This document shows, piece after piece, positions 25,897-57,573 of a DNA stretch of 64,000 nt (the stretch's first letter is position 1; each line of letters starts with the position of its first letter). The notes under the pieces were generated by a model, which worked only from the letters and a program-made list of their open reading frames with translations, was not told the DNA's origin and made no database searches. The stretch comes from Acidimicrobiales bacterium (GTDB taxonomy: Bacteria > Actinomycetota > Acidimicrobiia > Acidimicrobiales > SKKL01): the NCBI GenBank assembly GCA_034521975.1, contig JAXHLR010000006.1:248001-312000 (forward strand), in the 5' to 3' direction. Both the position numbers and the translations under genes were made by a program.

Positions 25897-26970
25897 TCAG
25901 CGGCCGGTCTCGTGGTCGCCCAGGCGGCGGGCCCGCTCGTCGGTGATCAGCGCGTCGCTCACGTCGTCGAGCTCGCCCGCCAGGACCTTGTCGAGCTTGT
26001 TGAGCGTCAACTTGATGCGGTGATCCGAGACCCGGTTCTCCTTGAAGTTGTAGGTGCGGATCTTCTCGGAGCGACCACCTCCGCCCACCTGGTCGCGTCG
26101 TTGTCCCGACAGCTCGGCCTCCTGGCGGTCCTGTTCGGCCTTGAGCAGGCGGGACCGCAGGACCTGCAGCGCCTTGGCCCGGTTCTGGATCTGGCTCTTC
26201 TCGTCCTGCATCGCCACGACCACGCCGGTGGGCTTGTGGGTGATCCGCACCGCCGAGTCGGTGGTGTTCACCGACTGACCACCCGGCCCCGACGAGCGGT
26301 AGACGTCGACCTGCAGATCGTTGGGGTCGATCTCGACGTCGACCTCCTCGGCTTCTGGCAGGACCGTGACCGTCGCCGACGACGTGTGCACCCGGCCCTG
26401 TGACTCGGTGACCGGGACCCGCTGCACCCGGTGCACGCCACCCTCGTGCTTGAGCCGGCTCCACACCCCGTCGCCCTTCACCAACACGGTGACCTCGTTG
26501 AACCCGCCCATGTCGGACACGTCGGTGCCGAGCACCTCGAAGGCCCAACCCATCCGCTGGGCGTAGCCCTTGTACATCTCGAACAGGTCGCGGGCGAACA
26601 GATTGGCCTCCTCGCCCCCTTCGGCCCCGCGGATCTCGAGGATGACGTTCTTGTCGTCATTGGGATCCTTGGGGAGCATGAGGCCCCGCAGCTCCTCGGT
26701 GAGCCGCTCGATCTCGGCTTCGGTGGTCTCGGCCTCCGCTCGCGTCTCCGCGCGATCGTCGCCGGATGCCTCGGTGGCCATCTCCCGCAGGACCGAGAGA
26801 TCCTCCTGCAACGAACGCAGCGCACGCGCACGGGTGACGACGGCCTCGAGCTCGCGGTAGCGCCGGGTGAGATCGGTGTAGATGCTCTGATCGGCGATGA
26901 CGGCGGGGTCGGCCAAGCGCGCCTCGAGGTCGTCGAACTCTTGCTCCAGGGACTCCAGACGCTCGAACAC
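25897..26970 (-). CDS. prfA: Peptide chain release factor 1
   Basis: 357 aa, normal length. The stop-codon-recognition tripeptide PVT lies in RVPVTESQGRVHTS, and the peptidyl-tRNA hydrolysis motif GGQ lies in SSGPGGQSVNTTDSAVRI. AEGGEEANLFARDL is also conserved. Recognises UAA/UAG. Sits 9 nt after the preceding hypothetical gene. Confidence 0.97.
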   Translation of the reverse strand: MFERLESLEQEFDDLEARLADPAVIADQSIYTDLTRRYRELEAVVTRARALRSLQEDLSVLREMATEASGDDRAETRAEAETTEAEIERLTEELRGLMLPKDPNDDKNVILEIRGAEGGEEANLFARDLFEMYKGYAQRMGWAFEVLGTDVSDMGGFNEVTVLVKGDGVWSRLKHEGGVHRVQRVPVTESQGRVHTSSATVTVLPEAEEVDVEIDPNDLQVDVYRSSGPGGQSVNTTDSAVRITHKPTGVVVAMQDEKSQIQNRAKALQVLRSRLLKAEQDRQEAELSGQRRDQVGGGGRSEKIRTYNFKENRVSDHRIKLTLNKLDKVLAGELDDVSDALITDERARRLGDHETGR

Positions 26971-26979
26971 CTTCGGAGG

Positions 26980-28002
26980 CTACCTGGACCACTCGGGGTC
27001 GACTTCGACGATCTCGGCCGGGCGGGCGAGCCGGTCGACCAGTTGGCGGGTGACGGGGTGGACGTCGCCGGTGGGGACCACCAGCATCAGGTGAGCGTCG
27101 GGCGCGTGCCAGGCCCGGGTGTCGGCCGCGTCGGGGACGGCGTCGAGGTCGACCCCCACCGATGCGGCCACGACGAGGGCTTCGCCGTCGGCCCGGCGCC
27201 CGAGGGCGGAGGCGATCGCGGTGTCACGCAGGCCGCCACGGGCCCGGGGCCGCTCGACCGCGTCGAGGCGGGTGGCGCCCACCGTCTCGGGTGCGTCGAT
27301 GATCTGGTGTCGCAACCACCGCTCGCGCACCAGACGGTTGACCGGGTGGGGCTCGGCCCCGGGGGCCCGCAACGACCGGATCTGGTCGACCACGCGGGCC
27401 AGAGCCTCGGGCGGAGAGAGATCTCCGTGCAACAGACCGAACGCCTCACGGTCGAAGCGGCCGACACCGACCTCGAGGTGGGCACCACCGTCGTGAACCA
27501 CGACCCTGGCCACCTCCAGGCCGCGGATCTCACCGATGACCTCGCCCTGCTCGACCACGACCTCGAGCCCGGCCTGTCGCAGCAGCAGCACCTGCTCGGC
27601 CGTGTCCGGCGGGGGCACGACGGGCGGTTCGTGGGGAGCAGGCTCGGCTTCGGTGAGCTGGTCGCCGGCGAGCACCCAGATCCGGGGAGCGGGCGCGAAC
27701 AGCTGCGCCTGGCGGGCGAGCACCCCAGGGTCGCGGCGGGTGGCCGCATCGGGGTCGACGATGAGATCGCACGAGACCGCTCCGTGCCGGACGGCCCAGA
27801 CCAGCCCGGCGCCCAACCCGCTGCCGGGGGCGTTGCCCAGGTCGATCACCGCGTGTCGGTCGACCATCGCCGCCGCCCCGTGGTGGGCGAACTCGGCGAA
27901 CGCCCCCGCATCGACCTCGAGGCCCAGGTGATCGCGGGCGAGCGACGCCGTGCGCGCCGCGACCAACGCCGCGCGGCGGTCGTCGCTCAGCGGCACGGTC
28001 AC
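26980..28002 (-). CDS. Conserved hypothetical protein between rpmE and prfA
   Basis: About 340 aa from a GTG at 28002, 22 nt after rpmE and 9 nt before prfA, so almost certainly part of the rho-rpmE-prfA-prmC transcript. Starts TVPLSDDRRAALVAART. Segments such as HAVIDLGNAPGSGLGAGLVWAV, LFAPAPRIWVLAGDQ and a C-terminal VVPTGDVHPVTRQLVDRLAR are well-formed, but I recognise no domain or catalytic motif. The PPPDTAEQ stretch is probably a linker. Codon use is like its neighbours, so it is a real gene. Function unknown. Confidence 0.6.
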   Translation of the reverse strand: MTVPLSDDRRAALVAARTASLARDHLGLEVDAGAFAEFAHHGAAAMVDRHAVIDLGNAPGSGLGAGLVWAVRHGAVSCDLIVDPDAATRRDPGVLARQAQLFAPAPRIWVLAGDQLTEAEPAPHEPPVVPPPDTAEQVLLLRQAGLEVVVEQGEVIGEIRGLEVARVVVHDGGAHLEVGVGRFDREAFGLLHGDLSPPEALARVVDQIRSLRAPGAEPHPVNRLVRERWLRHQIIDAPETVGATRLDAVERPRARGGLRDTAIASALGRRADGEALVVAASVGVDLDAVPDAADTRAWHAPDAHLMLVVPTGDVHPVTRQLVDRLARPAEIVEVDPEWSR

Positions 28003-28024
28003 CGCGTGGAGCTCGCTCGGCGGA

Positions 28025-28234
28025 TCAGCGCTGCTTGCGCCGGCCGTAGCGACGCTCGAAGCGGTCGATGCGACCGCCGGTGTCGACCAGCTTCTGCTTG
28101 CCTGTGTAGAACGGGTGGCACTCGCTGCACAGCTCGACCTTGAGCGACGTGGCGGTGCTGCGGGTGACGAAGGTGGCACCACACGAGCAGTGCACCTCGA
28201 CCTCGTTGTACTCGGGGTGGATGTCGGTCTTCAC
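28025..28234 (-). CDS. rpmE: 50S ribosomal protein L31, zinc-binding form
   Basis: 69 aa. Begins [19 protein letters not shown]; CxC at 16-18 and CSEC at 36-39 give the four zinc ligands of the C+ (zinc) paralogue. [18 protein letters not shown] is the family's central signature. GTG start with GGAGAG upstream. Confidence 0.97.
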
Positions 28235-28296
28235 AGGTGCTCTCCAGGGTCACACGGGGGCATGTGAGTCTGCCAGCTGCGGGCGCGAAACGCTAC

Positions 28297-30099
<1,803 letters not shown>

Positions 30100-30365
30100 C
30101 TGCGTCTCGTTTCTCGTGTTCGGAGGGAGTGGATGGGTGCCGGGTGCGCACCCGACTCAACGATCGACGGCGGGCACACGGTAAAGGTTCAACAGGCGCT
30201 GCTGTCGCCGCCACCAGGATCGGCCACGCGCCACCCGGGGACAGGTCGGGGCAGCAGCGCTGTCGTCGTGCGGCGCATCGGGTCCGACCGGTTGGGCCGC
30301 AGAACCCGTGTCATCACGACCAGCGCCAGCGTATCGGTCGAGGATCGACGACGCACAACCCGTGC
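30100..30365 (-). promoter_or_regulatory. Untranslated leader and promoter region of rho, with a 14-bp palindrome
   Basis: 266 nt without a gene between the phosphotransferase gene stop and the rho start. It contains a perfect 14-bp palindrome, CGGGTGCGCACCCG (30141-30154), some 45 nt before the rho start. No -10/-35 pair stands out. Rho commonly controls its own mRNA through the leader, so this region is the natural place to look, but no attenuator can be shown here. Confidence 0.4.
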
Positions 30366-31448
30366 CTAAGGGCCGGTGAGGAACTCCTCGGCGCCGAGTT
30401 CGAGCGCCTGGGAGGTGTGACGCTCGGCCATGGTGAGAAACATCGCGTCGCCGCGCTCGTCGGCGCGGACGATCATCGACGCGACCACCGCCATCTGCAG
30501 CCCGCTGAAGGCGAACCGTCGGTAGTCGTCCCAGCACTCGTCCCACGAGTAGCCCTCGACCCCGCGTTCGAGCAGCCCCTCGTGGTACCGCCGCACCAGA
30601 TCCTCCTCCACCGTCCTGCGCAGCTCGGGCACCAGTCCGGCACCCAGGAAGTAGGACAGATCCTCTGGTCCGACACCGACGGCCACGGTCTGCCAGTCGA
30701 CCACGGTGACCGCTCGGTCCCCGCCGGCCCCCGCCCCGAACAAGATGTTGTCCAGACGGAAGTCGCCGTGGACGAGGGTGAGCGGACCAGCTCCCCGGCG
30801 ACTCGCCCAGCCCGCCAGGGAGTCACCGAAGCGAGCACCCAGCTCGTGCAGCTCGGTCGACATGCGATCGCCGAAGCGCTCGACGAACCCCGGCCACAGC
30901 GCGGAGTACAGCTCGGCGATCCCACGGGCCGAATCGCCACTCGGCGGAGGCAACCACCCGATGTCGGTCAACGCCGGATCGCCCCACAGGGGGGCGTGCA
31001 ATGCCGGCATCTGATCGACCACCAACACCGCCTCCTCGACCGTGCACCCCGCGATCTGGTCACCCTGTTCGGCGGGAGCGAGATCCTCGAACACCAGGGT
31101 CGACAGACGGGTCTCCTCGTCGAGCTCGACCCGGTGGCAGAACGGGATGGCGATGTCGACCGTGCGGGCGAGGTCGCGGTAGAAGCGCGCCTCCTTCTCG
31201 TAGGTGCCCACCGCGACACCGGTCGCGCGGCTCTTCTCGTCCGGCGACGGGAACTTGGCGACCACGGTGGTCGGAGCGGTCGGCTCACTGCGGTCATAGG
31301 TCAGCGTGAACCGCACGTTGTGGCCCACCTGGCCGGTGCCGACGGGTTCGGCGGTGAACGACACCACCTCGGCGTCGACGACGGCGCCCGAGTCTCGGAG
31401 CGCGCCGGTGAGCCAGCTCGCGTCGACTTCCTCCGGTGTGGTGATCAT
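30366..31448 (-). CDS. Aminoglycoside phosphotransferase-fold kinase (acyl-CoA-dehydrogenase-associated type)
   Basis: 360 aa protein-kinase-like fold. The N-lobe has TVVAKFPSPD, the catalytic loop is LTLVHGDFRLDNILFG and the metal aspartate follows in AVTVVDWQTVAVG. Actinobacterial relatives often sit with lipid or xenobiotic catabolism genes and phosphorylate small hydroxylated molecules; true antibiotic resistance is not implied. ATG follows GGGAGGG. Divergent from the unknown-function gene at 31494 across only 45 bp that hold an inverted repeat. Confidence 0.8.
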   Translation of the reverse strand: MITTPEEVDASWLTGALRDSGAVVDAEVVSFTAEPVGTGQVGHNVRFTLTYDRSEPTAPTTVVAKFPSPDEKSRATGVAVGTYEKEARFYRDLARTVDIAIPFCHRVELDEETRLSTLVFEDLAPAEQGDQIAGCTVEEAVLVVDQMPALHAPLWGDPALTDIGWLPPPSGDSARGIAELYSALWPGFVERFGDRMSTELHELGARFGDSLAGWASRRGAGPLTLVHGDFRLDNILFGAGAGGDRAVTVVDWQTVAVGVGPEDLSYFLGAGLVPELRRTVEEDLVRRYHEGLLERGVEGYSWDECWDDYRRFAFSGLQMAVVASMIVRADERGDAMFLTMAERHTSQALELGAEEFLTGP

Positions 31449-31463
31449 CGGCCCTCCCGGCGG

Positions 31464-31488
31464 GGAGCGTACCGGCCCCGTACGCTCC
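31464..31488. promoter_or_regulatory. 9-bp inverted repeat in a 45-bp divergent intergenic region (candidate operator)
   Basis: GGAGCGTAC (31464-31472) and GTACGCTCC (31480-31488) are perfect inverted copies separated by 7 nt. They fill most of the gap between the divergent phosphotransferase gene and the unknown gene at 31494. Two 9-bp half-sites one and a half turns apart fit a dimeric repressor/activator. No regulator gene is adjacent. Confidence 0.6.
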
Positions 31489-31493
31489 AGGGT

Positions 31494-32615
31494 GTGCTTA
31501 CTCCACTCGACGACTACCCGTTGCATCAGACACCCGAGCCGGTCGCCAACTACGGGTCGCCCAGCCGCAACGCCTACGACCGCTACTTCTTCAACGGGTA
31601 CACACCCGACGGCGATCTGTTCTTCGCCGTGGCCATGGGCCTGTACCCCAACCGACAGGTGATCGACGCGTCGATCTCGGTGCTGGCCGACGGGGTGCAA
31701 CGGTCGTTGCACGCCTCGGGCCGGGCTCCGCTCGACCGGCGCCAGACCGTGGCCGGCCCGATCAGCGTCGAGGTGGTCGAGCCGCTGCGCACCCTCCGCG
31801 TCGTGGTCGACGATCCCGAGCGGGGCTTCAGCGCCGATCTGGTGTTCTCGGCCCGCACCCCGATGGTGGAGGAGCCCCGCTTCACCCACCGGCAGGGCCC
31901 GATGCTGACCTTCGACTACACCCGGATGTCGCAGTGGGGGTCGTGGTCGGGGGCCCTCACCGTCGACGACCAGACCTGGGTCCTGGGCGACATGCAGGTG
32001 TTGGGCACCCGCGACCGCTCGTGGGGCATCCGCCCCGTCGGCGAGCGCGAGGCCGGCGGAGTGCCGGGTCCGGACCCCCAGTTCTTCTGGCTGTGGGCGC
32101 CGATCAACTTCGACGACTGTTGCACCCACTTCGACTCCAACGAGTACCCCGACGGACGACCCTGGCATCGGTTCGCGTCGATCGCTCCCCTGCTGGCCAC
32201 TCCGGGCGCTCCCGCCTCCGGGGCGGAAGAGCCAGCCGAGCCCATGCGCGACGCCAACTGGTCGATCGACTGGGAGCAGGGCACCCGTCGCGCCCGCGCC
32301 GCCACCCTCGAGCTGGTCCCCTGGCGGGGCGAGGTCGAACGAATCGAGCTCGAACCGATCGTCACGTTCCAGATGCTCGGCCTCGGCTACCTGCACCCCG
32401 AGTGGAACCACGCCAACTGGCACGACGAGCTCGCGGTGGGAGACGAGACCTGGACCGTCGTCGACCTCGACCCGCTCGACCCGCGCCACATCCACGTGCA
32501 GCAACTGGTGCGGGCCACCTGGGGAGCGCGCACCGGAATCGGCGTGCTCGAACAGCTCGCCATCGGCCCCCATGAACCCTCGGGTCTCACCGGCCTGTTC
32601 GACGGCGCCCCCTGA
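31494..32615 (+). CDS. Conserved protein of unknown function, probable beta-rich lipocalin/AttH-like fold
   Basis: 373 aa from GTG at 31494. It alternates short beta strands and turns: RNAYDRYFFNGYTPDG, FFAVAMGLYPNRQVID, then VVEPLRTLRVVVDDPERG, SQWGSWSGALTVDD and GTRDRSWGIRPVG. The last reads like the WGxRDHSWGxR block of hydroxyneurosporene-synthase/AttH-type lipocalin domains. No signal peptide or catalytic motif is evident. It is divergently paired with a small-molecule kinase, sharing a potential operator, so the two probably act on one compound. Function otherwise unknown. Confidence 0.65.
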   Translation: MLTPLDDYPLHQTPEPVANYGSPSRNAYDRYFFNGYTPDGDLFFAVAMGLYPNRQVIDASISVLADGVQRSLHASGRAPLDRRQTVAGPISVEVVEPLRTLRVVVDDPERGFSADLVFSARTPMVEEPRFTHRQGPMLTFDYTRMSQWGSWSGALTVDDQTWVLGDMQVLGTRDRSWGIRPVGEREAGGVPGPDPQFFWLWAPINFDDCCTHFDSNEYPDGRPWHRFASIAPLLATPGAPASGAEEPAEPMRDANWSIDWEQGTRRARAATLELVPWRGEVERIELEPIVTFQMLGLGYLHPEWNHANWHDELAVGDETWTVVDLDPLDPRHIHVQQLVRATWGARTGIGVLEQLAIGPHEPSGLTGLFDGAP

Positions 32616-32660
32616 CCCGGCGGCGCGCCAACGAGGCGTCAGGCCCGTCGGGCGCCGATC

Positions 32661-34046
32661 TCAGTGGCGGGCGGTGAACTCGGCCACGTAGGCCTCGACG
32701 GCAGCGAGGTCGTCGGGCAGGTGGTCGAGACGCTCGGGTCGGTCGAACAGGTCGGCCAGGCGGGGCGGGAGGTTGGGGTGCACACCGGTCGCGGCCTCGA
32801 CGGCTTCGGGGAACTTGGCCGGGTCGGCGGTGCCCAGCACCACCATGGGCACCGAGGGATCGACGCGACCGGCGCGGGCGGCCGCCACACCGATGGCGGT
32901 GTGCGGGTCGATCAGCACGCCGGTGGCGTCGAGCACGGCCGAGATCGTCGCCGAGGTCTCGTCGTCGTCGAAGCGGGCGCCACTGAAGGTCTCGGACAAC
33001 CGGTCGAGCAGCTCGATCGGGAAGGTGACGGTGCCCTCGGCCCGGAACTGGGCCATCAAGTCGGCGAGGGCGGCGCCGTCACGCCCGTTGAGCTCGAACA
33101 GGAGCCGCTCGAGGTTGCTCGACACCTGGATGTCCATGGCTGGGCTGATGGTCTCCTCCACCGGTTGCATGGCCATGGTGCCGGTGGCGAAGAAGCGGGT
33201 GAGGATGTCGTTGCTGTTCGACCCCACCACCAGCTGGCGGATCGGGAGCCCCATGCGCATGGCCCCGTAGCCCGAGAACACGTTGCCGAAGTTGCCCGTG
33301 GGAACCGCGAACGACACCGGTCCGCCGCCGAGGCGTCGTTGGGACGTCACGTAGTAGACGGTCTGGGCCATGATCCGAGCGAAGTTGATGGAGTTCACCG
33401 CCGACAGCCGCTGCTGCGAACGGAACGGCTCGTCGGCGAACATCGCCTTGACCAGGTCCTGGCAGTCGTCGAAGGTGCCGTCGATCGAGACGTTGCGGAT
33501 GTTCGGAGCGTCGACGGTGGTCATGAGCCGTCGCTGGACCTCCGACACCCGGCCCTCGGGGTGGAGGATGACCACGTCGATGGCGTCGCGGTCGCGCAAC
33601 GCCTCGATGGCCGCCGATCCGGTGTCGCCCGAGGTGGCACCGATGATGGTGACCCGTTCGCCACGCTCGGCCAGCACGTGATCGAACAAGCGACCGACCA
33701 GTTGCAGGGCCACGTCCTTGAACGCCAGCGTCGGACCGTGGAACAGCTCGGCGAGGTACAGACCGTCGCCGAGGTCGGTGAGAGGTACCACATCGGGATG
33801 GTCGAAGGTGGCGTAGGTGTCGGCGACCATCTGTTCGAAGTCGCCGCGCTCGATGTCGCCCTCGACGAAGGGCCACATCACCGCGACCGCCACGTCGACG
33901 TAGCTGGCCGCGTCGGTGGGCACGTCGAGCCTCGGCCACCGGGCGGGGACGTACAAGCCGCCATCGGAGGCCAGGCCGGTGAGCAGGACGTCGGCGAACC
34001 CCAGCTCGGGGGCAACGCCTCGGGTGCTGAGGTAGCCGAGCCCCAT
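32661..34046 (-). CDS. thrC: Threonine synthase
   Basis: 461 aa fold-type II PLP enzyme of the longer (ThrC class I) type. N-terminal YLSTRGVAPELGFADVLLTG, the PLP lysine in FHGPTLAFKDVALQL, GATSGDTGSAAIEAL binding PLP phosphate, and AVPTGNFGNVFSGY. Converts O-phosphohomoserine to threonine. The ATG at 34046 overlaps the hom stop by one base (TGATG); a TTG directly before it is a less likely start. Last gene of the argS-lysA-hom-thrC series. Confidence 0.96.
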   Translation of the reverse strand: MGLGYLSTRGVAPELGFADVLLTGLASDGGLYVPARWPRLDVPTDAASYVDVAVAVMWPFVEGDIERGDFEQMVADTYATFDHPDVVPLTDLGDGLYLAELFHGPTLAFKDVALQLVGRLFDHVLAERGERVTIIGATSGDTGSAAIEALRDRDAIDVVILHPEGRVSEVQRRLMTTVDAPNIRNVSIDGTFDDCQDLVKAMFADEPFRSQQRLSAVNSINFARIMAQTVYYVTSQRRLGGGPVSFAVPTGNFGNVFSGYGAMRMGLPIRQLVVGSNSNDILTRFFATGTMAMQPVEETISPAMDIQVSSNLERLLFELNGRDGAALADLMAQFRAEGTVTFPIELLDRLSETFSGARFDDDETSATISAVLDATGVLIDPHTAIGVAAARAGRVDPSVPMVVLGTADPAKFPEAVEAATGVHPNLPPRLADLFDRPERLDHLPDDLAAVEAYVAEFTARH

Positions 34047-35347
34047 CAAGACGTCGAACCGGCCACGACCCGAAGGACGCTGGCGACGCGGTCGACGACC
34101 TCGAGGTCGCGCAGGGTCTGCAGGGTGGTCTGCACATCGGCCTCGACGGCCTCGTGGGTGATGAAGACCAAGCGCGCCTCGGCGCCGAGGCCTTCCTGCT
34201 CCATCGAGCGGATGGACACCCCGTGCTCGCCGAACACTCCGGCGACGGTCGCCAGGGCTCCGGGCCGGTCGGCCACCTCGAGGTTGATGTAGTACTCCGA
34301 CGTCAGCATGTCGATGGGGCGGATGACCACTTCGGTGCGACGGGCGATGGTGGCCGCCCGCCCCTGGCCGAGGTTGAGCGCGGCGTCGATGACGTCGCCG
34401 AGCACGGCGCTGGCGGTGGGGGCACCACCGGCGCCGCGGCCATAGAACATGAGGTCACCGACCGCACCGCCCTCGACGAACACCGCGTTGAACGACTCAC
34501 GCACCGAGGCCAGCGGATGACTGACCGGCACCATCGCCGGATGGACCCGCACGGCGAGCTCTTGGCCGTCGCCACCGTCGAAACGCTCGACGATGGCGAG
34601 CAGCTTCACGACATAGCCCAACCGCTCGGCGAAGGCGAGGTCGGCGGGGGTGATGTCGGAGATCCCCTCGCGGTAGACGTCGCCGGCGACCACGTCGGTG
34701 CCGAAGACGATGGAAGCGATGATGGCGGCCTTGGCCCCCGCGTCGTAGCCCTCGATGTCGGCGGTCGGGTCACGCTCGGCGTACCCGAGCTCCTGGGCCT
34801 CTGCCACCGCCTCGCCGAAGGTGATCCAGTCCTCGGCCATGCGGCCGAGGATGTAGTTGGTCGTCCCGTTGACGATGCCCATGACCCGGCCGATGTCCTC
34901 GCCGGCGAGCGACTCGCGCAAGGGGCGGATGAGCGGGATGCCGCCGGCGACCGCCGCTTCGAACAGCAGGTCGACACCGGAATCGGCCGCGGCCTCGTAG
35001 AGCTCGGCACCGAGGTTGGCGAGCAGCTCCTTGTTGGCGGTGATCACCGGCTTTCGGGCCGAGAGTGCGTCGAGGATCAACCCGCGGGCCGGCTCGATGC
35101 CGCCGATGAGCTCGACCACCACGTCGACGTCGGGGTCGACCACGACCTCGGCGGAGTCGTGGGTGAGGATCCCGTCGTCGAACTCGACCGAGCGCTCGCG
35201 CGACAGGTTGTGGACCGCCACCCGGGCGATCTGGAGGTCGATGCCGTAGCGGGCCTCGATCTCGGGGGCCCGCTCCCTGACCAGCGACACGAAGGCGGCG
35301 CCCACGTTGCCGCAACCCAGCAATCCGATTCGTACAGGTCGACTCAT
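34046..35347 (-). CDS. hom: Homoserine dehydrogenase with ACT domain
   Basis: 433 aa. NAD(P)-binding start RIGLLGCGNVGAAFVSLV; catalytic region with KPVITANKELLA, FEAAVAGGIPLIRPL and GIVNGTTNYILGRM; a C-terminal ACT domain from VADRPGALATVAGVFGEHGVS, consistent with threonine feedback. Reduces aspartate semialdehyde to homoserine. ATG at 35347; gap of 65 nt to lysA, then one-base overlap with thrC. Confidence 0.96.
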   Translation of the reverse strand: MSRPVRIGLLGCGNVGAAFVSLVRERAPEIEARYGIDLQIARVAVHNLSRERSVEFDDGILTHDSAEVVVDPDVDVVVELIGGIEPARGLILDALSARKPVITANKELLANLGAELYEAAADSGVDLLFEAAVAGGIPLIRPLRESLAGEDIGRVMGIVNGTTNYILGRMAEDWITFGEAVAEAQELGYAERDPTADIEGYDAGAKAAIIASIVFGTDVVAGDVYREGISDITPADLAFAERLGYVVKLLAIVERFDGGDGQELAVRVHPAMVPVSHPLASVRESFNAVFVEGGAVGDLMFYGRGAGGAPTASAVLGDVIDAALNLGQGRAATIARRTEVVIRPIDMLTSEYYINLEVADRPGALATVAGVFGEHGVSIRSMEQEGLGAEARLVFITHEAVEADVQTTLQTLRDLEVVDRVASVLRVVAGSTS

Positions 35348-35412
35348 GGCCGCCCACGCTACAAGAGCCCCACCCGGGGCCCAGCCACGGGATCCGTCGG
35401 GCCGTGGGCGGC

Positions 35413-36735
35413 TCAGAGATCGAGGCGGAGGAGGTCGTCGTAGGTCTCGCGACGGACGACGAGGCGAGCCTCGCCGTCGCGCACGAACACGACCGGGGGC
35501 CGCAGGATCTTGTTGTAGTTCGAGCCCATCGAATGGCCGTAGGCGCCGGTGACCGGGGTGACCAGCAGGTCGCCGACGGCCAGGTCGTCGGGCACGTAGC
35601 CCTCGCGCACCAAGACGTCGCCCGACTCGCAGTGCTTGCCGACCAAGCGGATCTCGCGGGGTCGGTCGGCACCGACCGCCCGGGGCAGGAACGTCTCGTA
35701 GCCGCTGCCGTAGAGCACCGGACGGGGGTTGTCGCTCATTCCCCCGTCGACCGACACGTAGGTGCGGATTCCGGGCAGCTCCTTGACGGTGCCCACCGTG
35801 TAGGCGGTGACCGCCGCCGCGGCCACGATGGAGCGACCCGGCTCCGCGGTGACCGTGGCGGTGATGCCGGCCTCGACGCAGGCCTGGCGCAGCACGGCAC
35901 CCCACTGGGTGATGGTGGCCGACTCCTCGCCCTCGACGTAGGCGACGCCCAGCCCGCCACCGATCGAGAACTCGGGCAGCCCGAGCGAGTTGACCGTCGG
36001 CGCCAGGGTCTCGATGGCCCGGCGGAACGAGTCGACAGCGAACACCTGGCTCCCGATGTGGACGTGGACGCCCACCAGCTTCAGCGCCGGTGACTCGCCC
36101 GCCCGTTCGATGGCGCGCAGGGCGTCACCGCTGGCGAGGCCGAACCCGAACTTCGAGTCGTCCTGGCCGGTGCGCACGTACTCGTGGGTGTGGGCCTCGA
36201 TGCCGGGGGTGATCCGCAACATGACCGCCGGCACCCGCGCCCCTGCGGCGACCAGCGCTTCGATGCGGTCCATCTCATCGAAGGAGTCGACCACGATGCG
36301 GCCCACGCCGACCTCGAGGGCCAGCGACAGCTCGGGGTGCGACTTGTTGTTGCCGTGGAACACGAGACGGCTGGCCGGTACCCCGCCTGCGAGGGCCACC
36401 CGCATCTCGCCTCCCGTCGCGACGTCGATGCACATGCCCTCGTCGTGCACCAGCTCGGCCATGGCCCGGCACAGGAACGCCTTGGAGGCATAGGCCACCC
36501 CGTCGCCGAAGGCGGCGACGGCCTCGCGGGCCCGGTCACGCAGGTGGACCTCGTCGTAGACGAACAGCGGGGTGCCGAACTCGGCGGCCAGGTCGTCGAG
36601 GCGGCAGCCGCCGATGGCCAGGTAGCCGTCGGGTTCGACGGTGGCGTGGTCGGGCAGCAGGTGGAGGGGGACGGGGCCACGAGCGCCCATCCACGGGCTG
36701 GTGGCTCCCGGACCGGCGGAAGGGGTGGCGGTCAC
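35413..36735 (-). CDS. lysA: Diaminopimelate decarboxylase
   Basis: 440 aa fold-type III PLP decarboxylase. PLP lysine in VAYASKAFLCRAM, HGNNKSHPEL, the GVHVHIGSQV segment, EPGRSIVAAAAV, and the catalytic HCESGDVLV. Makes lysine from meso-diaminopimelate. The GTG start overlaps the argS stop by GTGA; the order argS-lysA is widespread in actinomycetes. Confidence 0.96.
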   Translation of the reverse strand: MTATPSAGPGATSPWMGARGPVPLHLLPDHATVEPDGYLAIGGCRLDDLAAEFGTPLFVYDEVHLRDRAREAVAAFGDGVAYASKAFLCRAMAELVHDEGMCIDVATGGEMRVALAGGVPASRLVFHGNNKSHPELSLALEVGVGRIVVDSFDEMDRIEALVAAGARVPAVMLRITPGIEAHTHEYVRTGQDDSKFGFGLASGDALRAIERAGESPALKLVGVHVHIGSQVFAVDSFRRAIETLAPTVNSLGLPEFSIGGGLGVAYVEGEESATITQWGAVLRQACVEAGITATVTAEPGRSIVAAAAVTAYTVGTVKELPGIRTYVSVDGGMSDNPRPVLYGSGYETFLPRAVGADRPREIRLVGKHCESGDVLVREGYVPDDLAVGDLLVTPVTGAYGHSMGSNYNKILRPPVVFVRDGEARLVVRRETYDDLLRLDL

Positions 36736-38336
36736 ATCTCCTCCGGGGCGGACACACCGAGCAGGTCGAGGGCGACCGCCAAGCCGACCCGCGTCGCCTC
36801 GACCAGCCAGAGGCGGGCCTGGGTCAGCTCGGGTGCGACGCTGTCGCTGATGACGTAGCAGTCGTGGTAGAAGCCGTGGAACGCTCCGGCCAGCTCCCGG
36901 ACCCAGGCTGCGACCCGGTGCGGCGCCCGCTCGTTGGCGGCAACCAGCACCACCTCGGGCAGCTCGGACAGGACCCGTATGATGTCGAGCTCGCGCTCGT
37001 GGGTGAGCAGGGCGAGGTCGGTCGCGCCGAGCTCGGCCCGTTCGATCCCCAGCTCGAGGGCCTTGCGGCCGATCGAGTGGATGCGGGCGTGGGCGTACTG
37101 CACGTAGTACACGGGGTTCTCGGCCGCCTCGGACTTCACGACCGCGTAGTCGAAGGTCATCTTGGTGTCGGGCGACTGCAGCAGGTAGGTGAGGCGCGCG
37201 GCGTCGGCGCCGACCTCGTCGAAGACGTCGCGCAGCTCGATGATGTCGCCGGCGCGCTTGGACAGCTTCACCGGCTCACCGGCGTCGAGGAGGTTGACCA
37301 GCTGGGTGATGCGGCACTCGAGCTCGTCGGGGTCGTGGCCGAGCGCCTGCACCGCGGCCTTCATGCGGGGGACATAGCCGTGGTGGTCGGCACCCCACAC
37401 ATCGATGAGGCGGTCGGCCCGAGCGAACTTGTCGCGGTGGTAGGCGATGTCGGGCAGCACATAGGTGTACTCGCCGTCGGACTTGATGAGCGGACGGTCC
37501 TTGTCGTCGCCGAACTCGGTCGATCGTAGCCAGGTGGCCCCGTCGTGGTCGTAGGCGGCGTCGCGCGAGCGCAGGTCGGCGAGGGTGGCGTCGATGGCGC
37601 CGGCGTCGACCAGGGTGCGCTCGCTGAACCAGGTGTCGAAATGCACGTTCATGCGGGCGAGAGTGTCGCGGTGCTCGGCCAGCGCCCGGGCCTCGCCCCA
37701 CTCGAGGGGGAGGGCGTCGGCGGGCATCTCGGCCGCCCACTCGCGGATGTACTCGCCCTGGTAGCCGCCCTCGGGCACCTCGACGCCGTCGCGGCGCGCA
37801 GCGAGCGACTGGGCGAACTTCTGCATCTGGGTGCCGCGGTCGTTGATGTAGGTCTCGCGTTGCACGGTGTACCCGCAGCGTTCGAGGAGGCGGGCCACCG
37901 AGTCGCCGTAGGCGGCACCCCGGCCGTGGCCGGCGTGGAGGGGGCCGGTGGGGTTGGCCGACACGAACTCGACGTTGACGGAGGTGGCGGTGCCGATGTC
38001 GTGGCGGGCGTAGTCGGTGGCCCCCGCCTCGAGGACCTCGACCAGCACGTCGTGGAGCCACGAGTCGTGGAGGTGGAAGTTGACGAACCCGGGCCCGGCG
38101 ATCTCGACGCTGCGCACGTGGTCGGGCGGGTTGGCGTTGAGGACCTCGGCGATCCGGCCGGCCAGATCACGGGGGTTCCATCCCGCCTGCTTGGCGGTGG
38201 CGAGGGCGACGTTGGTGGACCAGTCGCCGTGCTCGCGGTTGGCCGGTCGTTCGAGATGGACGCGCTCGGGCAGCGGATCGATCTCGAGCGCTCGCAGCGT
38301 GATGCGAACGGCGTCGGCCAAGGCGTCGCGGATCAA
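36732..38336 (-). CDS. argS: Arginyl-tRNA synthetase
   Basis: 534 aa class I synthetase. N-terminal Add-1 domain, then the HIGH-like motif in SANPTGPLHAGHGRGAAYGD (HAGH), a KMSKS-like loop PVKLSKRAGDII, and a C-terminal DALR anticodon domain (YYVQYAHARIHSIGRK). Charges tRNA-Arg; a tRNA-Arg(CCG) gene lies 2.5 kb away. Heads the amino-acid operon. Confidence 0.96.
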   Translation of the reverse strand: MIRDALADAVRITLRALEIDPLPERVHLERPANREHGDWSTNVALATAKQAGWNPRDLAGRIAEVLNANPPDHVRSVEIAGPGFVNFHLHDSWLHDVLVEVLEAGATDYARHDIGTATSVNVEFVSANPTGPLHAGHGRGAAYGDSVARLLERCGYTVQRETYINDRGTQMQKFAQSLAARRDGVEVPEGGYQGEYIREWAAEMPADALPLEWGEARALAEHRDTLARMNVHFDTWFSERTLVDAGAIDATLADLRSRDAAYDHDGATWLRSTEFGDDKDRPLIKSDGEYTYVLPDIAYHRDKFARADRLIDVWGADHHGYVPRMKAAVQALGHDPDELECRITQLVNLLDAGEPVKLSKRAGDIIELRDVFDEVGADAARLTYLLQSPDTKMTFDYAVVKSEAAENPVYYVQYAHARIHSIGRKALELGIERAELGATDLALLTHERELDIIRVLSELPEVVLVAANERAPHRVAAWVRELAGAFHGFYHDCYVISDSVAPELTQARLWLVEATRVGLAVALDLLGVSAPEEM

Positions 38337-57521: not shown

Positions 57522-57573
57522 TGGACCTACCCCGGGTTGATATCTAGATGTCTGTCAACCCGGGGTAGGTCCA
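57522..57573. terminator. Perfect 19-bp inverted repeat at the end of the Rhs fragment
   Basis: TGGACCTACCCCGGGTTGA (57522-57540) and its exact inverse TCAACCCGGGGTAGGTCCA (57555-57573) flank a 14-nt loop. The minus-strand Rhs frame ends inside it: its TGA is the first three bases of the right arm on the plus strand. A 19-bp stem is far beyond chance. It most likely terminates transcription (no T-run on either side) or protects RNA ends; a recombination role is possible. Confidence 0.75.

Follow-up and report, generated by a model that had tools for sequence, protein, structure and literature searches.

The 45-bp gap between two divergent start codons on an Acidimicrobiales contig raises the question of what a palindrome does in so small a space. 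The gap occupies positions 31449-31493 of the analysed stretch of 64,000 nucleotides (referred to as the window) and is bounded by the ATG of a minus-strand kinase gene (31446-31448) and the GTG of a plus-strand gene for a lyase-like protein (31494-31496); both starts were taken from reading frames and orthologue alignments rather than from gene-finder output. As an earlier reading of this DNA, made without database searches (the sequence-only reading), had noted, the gap holds a perfect 9-N7-9 inverted repeat (GGAGCGTAC-CGGCCCC-GTACGCTCC, 31464-31488, no strand), which covers 25 of the 45 bases. A repeat with 9-bp arms is ordinary somewhere in a GC-rich window of this kind: counting perfect repeats with arms of at least 9 and loops of 3-20 over the whole 64 kb gave 18 that are distinct by position (29 rows if nested ones are included), and ten Markov-1 simulations of the window gave 11-26 rows with a mean of 16. 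Within one 45-base upstream stretch arms of 9 are rare, arising in 2 of 960 shuffles. The strongest repeat found in the window lies at 57522-57573 (19-bp perfect arms, 14-nt loop, TGGACCTACCCCGGGTTGA); its arm has one further exact copy on contig 4 of the genome, an ORF from 58332 resembles an IS21-type transposase by eye, with an RHS-like reading frame overlapping the interval that separates this ORF from the repeat.

Each arm of the repeat in the gap contains the hexamer TACGCT, oriented outward, and this hexamer is of the TANNNT type known as the actinobacterial -10 element and the signal of leaderless genes (PMC3160421, PMC3898074, as far as the portions cited here go). The copy in the right arm (31481-31486, plus strand) ends 7 nt 5' of the GTG of the lyase gene. 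In a 304-kb sample of the same genome, consisting of the window and 12 further stretches with predicted genes, TANNNT is found 6-8 nt 5' of the start codon in 28 of 154 genes (12, 10 and 6 genes at 6, 7 and 8 nt), while the other distances between 0 and 44 nt account for 0-2 genes each; the gene finder is crude, and at the pair locus it missed the kinase gene and set the lyase start too far upstream. The same spacing recurs in orthologues of the lyase gene, where 18 of 48 distinct upstream stretches (54 rows minus repeated sequences) carry TANNNT at 6-8 nt, 13 of them at exactly 7; of the 30 that do not, some sit behind a kinase gene. By a rough binomial estimate that ignores relatedness and uses a range of 6-8 nt picked post hoc, both peaks, in the genome and among the orthologues, are far above chance. 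The right arm thus has the TANNNT spacing of an actinobacterial leaderless promoter, from which a leaderless mRNA would start at or beside the GTG. A classical sigma-70 promoter with a -35 element was not found in 31300-31650; for M. tuberculosis, the part of PMC3898074 considered here reports no conserved -35 and calls divergent promoters in close juxtaposition common. Our literature search returned no paper on leaderless promoters in Acidimicrobiia.

The left arm carries the corresponding element of the kinase gene (31466-31471, minus strand). Read on that strand, 7 nt separate TACGCT from GGGAGGGCCG-ATG, so that a transcript starting 7 nt 3' of the hexamer would have a leader of 10 nt (31449-31458, minus strand), most of it the Shine-Dalgarno-like run GGGAGGG. 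The left -10 would accordingly produce a kinase mRNA with a short leader that includes a ribosome-binding sequence, and the GGGAGGG leader is also kept in a genome of the same genus (G003). The distance from the left -10 to the kinase start is 17, 16 and 21 nt in three genomes of the family and 8 nt in the fourth; distances of 9-24 nt are rare in the sample (3 of 154 genes), a point against reading the left hexamer as a -10 element.

Conservation was assessed in all four genomes that we reached in the taxonomic family, a small sample comprising the genome of the window (G000) and three relatives (G001, G002 and G003). All four have the divergent kinase/lyase pair, with gaps of 45 bp in G000 and G003, about 154 bp in G001 and 63 bp in G002. 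In the order G000, G003, G001 and G002, the kinase-side hexamers are TACGCT, TAACGT, TAGCGT and TAGCGT, and the lyase-side hexamers TACGCT, TACGCT, TACCGT and TACGGT; the T, the A and the final T of both are therefore kept in every genome, whereas the inverted repeat is confined to G000. The sequence-only reading had named a lack of conservation between orthologous pairs as what would refute its proposal, and the repeat does lack it; what is conserved is the two -10 elements. The gaps of G000 and G003 are of equal length and identical at 28 of 45 positions. Both have the same right hexamer, the left one is TACGCT in G000 and TAACGT, with a 1-bp shift, in G003, and around the same axis 11 of 14 positions are complementary in G000 and 3 of 14 in G003. 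In the 48 distinct stretches upstream of the lyase orthologues, arms otherwise reach 6 at most, and with a different sequence.

These observations weigh on two further explanations. The repeat could be a chance palindrome with neither arm functional and the promoters elsewhere, in keeping with the 18 distinct repeats of equal strength in the window; but the spacing of TANNNT to the lyase start recurs in distant orthologues and both hexamers are kept throughout the family, and we regard this explanation as very unlikely. It could alternatively act as an RNA hairpin, be it a terminator, an attenuator or a mask of the ribosome site, since any transcript that included it would form a GC-rich stem of 9 bp closed by a loop of 7 nt. 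The repeat, however, lies upstream of both predicted transcription starts and would be absent from both main mRNAs, it is not conserved, and no terminator-like T run is present in 31300-31650, all of which makes a hairpin function exceedingly improbable.

A more serious alternative is that an unlinked repressor, of the TetR type or similarly dimeric, uses the repeat as its operator, covers both -10 elements and silences both genes. The size and placement of the repeat would fit a TetR-type repressor, the genome has 23 TetR_N matches, and in M. tuberculosis the TetR-family repressor Rv3167c is described as repressing the Rv3168-Rv3169 operon by binding a palindrome that lies between this operon and the repressor's gene (PMC5340868, in the part cited here). 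What chiefly still speaks for an operator is that the symmetry extends 3 bases beyond the hexamers. Against it stands the absence of the repeat from the other three genomes of the family despite the equal arrangement of the genes. A search for the 25-bp pattern elsewhere, which the sequence-only reading had suggested making near regulator genes, gave no second copy in the genome at up to 3 mismatches. Across 298 genomes of the order, two sites matched with at most 1 mismatch, namely the site itself and one in G003 that we treat as chance because it sits inside a coding frame (PlsY-like by eye); a search of viral contigs gave one exact match, on a contig of 8,950 bases. The genome-wide search for regulators covered the TetR family, and no TetR_N match above the cut-off was found, either up to 10 kb from the pair in G000 and G002 or on the pair-bearing contigs of G001 and G003, which are about 17-18 kb long. 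Nor is there a regulator gene adjoining the pair among the flanking genes, which encode RF-1, Rho, threonine synthase, homoserine dehydrogenase, a decarboxylase-fold enzyme, ArgRS and one protein without a Pfam match. Taken together, the repeat is probably not an operator, and we consider that explanation unlikely. The pair itself is embedded in a housekeeping run (25897-38336), in which the decarboxylase-fold enzyme is of the PLP type.

The extent of symmetry to be expected from two -10 elements was estimated within the genome. Comparing the 28 leaderless -10 sites with one another gave 378 pairs; the hexamer is identical in 26 of them, and in 5 the identity extends over 9 or more contiguous bases with the hexamer among them. 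A weight-matrix estimate puts the figure at 0.4%. Given two -10 elements, the extra symmetry is thus a coincidence of roughly 1 in 100; where a genome has many divergent pairs, such a coincidence is acceptable. The same genome also contains a second compact divergent pair (L100, 17579/17621) whose gap of 41 bp accommodates -10 elements 8 and 6 nt from the two starts, with no such repeat; the gene finder listed 13 divergent pairs, with the true kinase/lyase pair absent among them. Two promoters therefore fit a gap this small, and the argument that 45 bp leave no room for them is not supported, nor is the proposal of a single control site governing both genes, as the arms match two separate -10 elements. 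We consider it likely that the inverted repeat is made up of two outward-facing -10 elements, 9 bp apart, whose neighbouring bases happen to coincide, and that the products of the two genes act in sequence. With overlapping polymerase footprints, the two promoters are probably mutually exclusive at any instant, an arrangement that would couple the kinase and lyase genes without a dedicated regulator. The regulatory element itself is ordinary actinobacterial promoter anatomy, and it serves as a warning for GC-rich actinobacteria that back-to-back -10 elements can mimic an operator palindrome. The two genes matter more than the element between them.

The right gene (31494-32615, plus strand) encodes a protein of 373 aa from the GTG that belongs to the Rv3169 family, matching NF053593 over the entire profile (1-351 of 351) with 379 bits against a cut-off of 150. 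It is a homologue of the solved 25-phosphosteroid lyase, a name that we take from the PDB titles: PDB 9fzn is matched with an E-value of 1.5e-44 by single sequence and 1.5e-74 by profile, the profile match spanning positions 2-317 of 369, and motifs such as RNxYDRY and RDRSWGxRPVGE are common to both proteins. The fold is shared as well, as the AlphaFold model (pLDDT 88.9) superimposes on 9g4c with a TM-score of 0.82 and 28% identity over the whole model. According to its title, 9g4c holds phosphate and desmost-1,4-diene-3-one, the latter being the alkene product of the 25-hydroxysteroid pathway as outlined in the cited part of PMC8449060. Elimination of phosphate from a 25-phosphosteroid by the window protein is a prediction from homology and modelled fold. 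The sequence-only reading was right about a beta-rich protein next to a divergently transcribed kinase; its description of the unit as uncharacterised is only partly apt, given a named family and a solved relative.

The left gene (30366-31448, minus strand) encodes a kinase of 360 aa from the ATG with the APH/EcKL (ecdysteroid kinase-like) fold. Its best Pfam match is EcKL with 59.5 bits, followed by APH with 46.1 bits, and the AlphaFold model (pLDDT 94.4) retrieved APH/choline-kinase-fold kinases throughout among the 50 Foldseek matches listed; a single-sequence phmmer search against the PDB gave no match at 0.001. An assignment as 25-hydroxysteroid kinase (25-HSK) was rejected, since 9fsg is reached by profile with an E-value of 0.059, behind 13 other sequences, and by fold at rank 28 among the Foldseek matches listed with 14% identity; 25-HSK is no nearer to the window kinase than other kinases of the APH fold are. 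The window kinase is likewise not a close relative of Rv3168, a kinase-like protein, as 3ats, which we take to be Rv3168, is matched by profile with an E-value of only 0.0018. A second match to EcKL-type kinases in the same genome (L087, 1501-1764, contig 8) outscores the window kinase against the EcKL model.

The kinase and the lyase family tend to occur together. In the 298 genomes of the order, the lyase family is present in 87 of the 92 genomes with a close kinase homologue, compared with 80 of the 206 without (cut-offs 1e-60 for the kinase and 1e-3 for the lyase, relatedness ignored). The two genes are adjacent in at least 14 of the 87 (4 divergent, 5 with the kinase upstream of the lyase, 4 in the reverse order and 1 convergent), a lower bound because adjacency was read by hand among the matches listed. 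In a separate set of 24 lyase loci from named genomes, 6 have a neighbouring kinase match, one of them a divergent pair with a longer gap in an Acidobacteriota MAG; two of the 6 (L003 and L004) apparently coincide with the pair-bearing contigs of G001 and G003. Most lyase genes have no such kinase nearby, a point against an obligatory pair. The proposal of a two-gene detoxification or catabolic unit holds up insofar as a metabolic unit is likely, with the pairing recurring in several gene orders, and fails with regard to shared control by the repeat.

Our best guess for the chemistry, by analogy with Sterolibacterium denitrificans, is a two-enzyme, ATP-dependent dehydration in which the kinase would phosphorylate an alcohol and the lyase would then eliminate the phosphate to leave an alkene. 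In that organism the dehydration of a tertiary alcohol consumes ATP and takes two enzymes, a 25-hydroxysteroid kinase and a lyase, with the lyase unknown or putative in the cited parts of the two papers (PMC8449060, PMC11061730); the 2021 paper, in its cited part, found no lyase candidate near the kinase gene (PMC8449060). Nothing in our analysis indicates a steroid as the substrate here. We would extend the idea tentatively, at somewhat less than even chances, to the whole Rv3169 family including M. tuberculosis Rv3169, whose members might be phosphoester lyases that work with various APH-fold kinases in ATP-driven dehydration of alcohols; the window pair would then be a module of this kind that differs from the steroid system in kinase subfamily and substrate. 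The structure of 25-phosphosteroid lyase hands this widespread family a testable chemistry, and the repeated presence of a kinase beside it, in several gene orders, suggests that hydroxyl removal by two enzymes is a general route.

Among known systems, ACAD11 offers one parallel: it transfers phosphate to a hydroxyacyl group and afterwards removes it by elimination, and part of its N-terminal third (PDB 8v3u, 8v3v) is matched by the profile of the window kinase, but it is a single fused protein with an acyl-CoA dehydrogenase domain in place of an Rv3169-type lyase. With regard to the promoters, the locus resembles actinobacterial leaderless promoters as described in the cited parts of PMC3160421 and PMC3898074 in its TANNNT element, the lack of a recognisable -35 and the distance of about 7 nt to the start codon, and it shares with closely juxtaposed divergent promoters in the same sources the proximity of the two -10 elements; unlike in those, both hexamers and their flanks are identical here and form a perfect 9-bp repeat, and the starts are predicted ones. 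In the bidirectional promoters of E. coli, promoter symmetry likewise gives divergent transcription with competing polymerases, and the two directions share -10 bases, with starts mostly 18 bp apart and 10 and 23 bp also common (PMC12825309, in the part cited here). The window locus is not a shared-element promoter of this type, as its hexamers are separate (31466-31471 and 31481-31486) and the predicted starts would be about 34 bp apart. The M. tuberculosis Rv3168-Rv3169 operon has the name-giving member of the lyase family beside Rv3168 and adjoins a TetR repressor gene (PMC5340868, same part), whereas the window genes are divergent with no regulator adjacent. The system of Sterolibacterium denitrificans (25-HSK/25-PSL; PDB 9fzn, 9g4c, 9fsg) provides the same combination of an APH-fold kinase with a lyase that matches in both sequence and fold; it differs in that the kinase and lyase genes are neighbours in the window and in that the window kinase is not specifically near 25-HSK.
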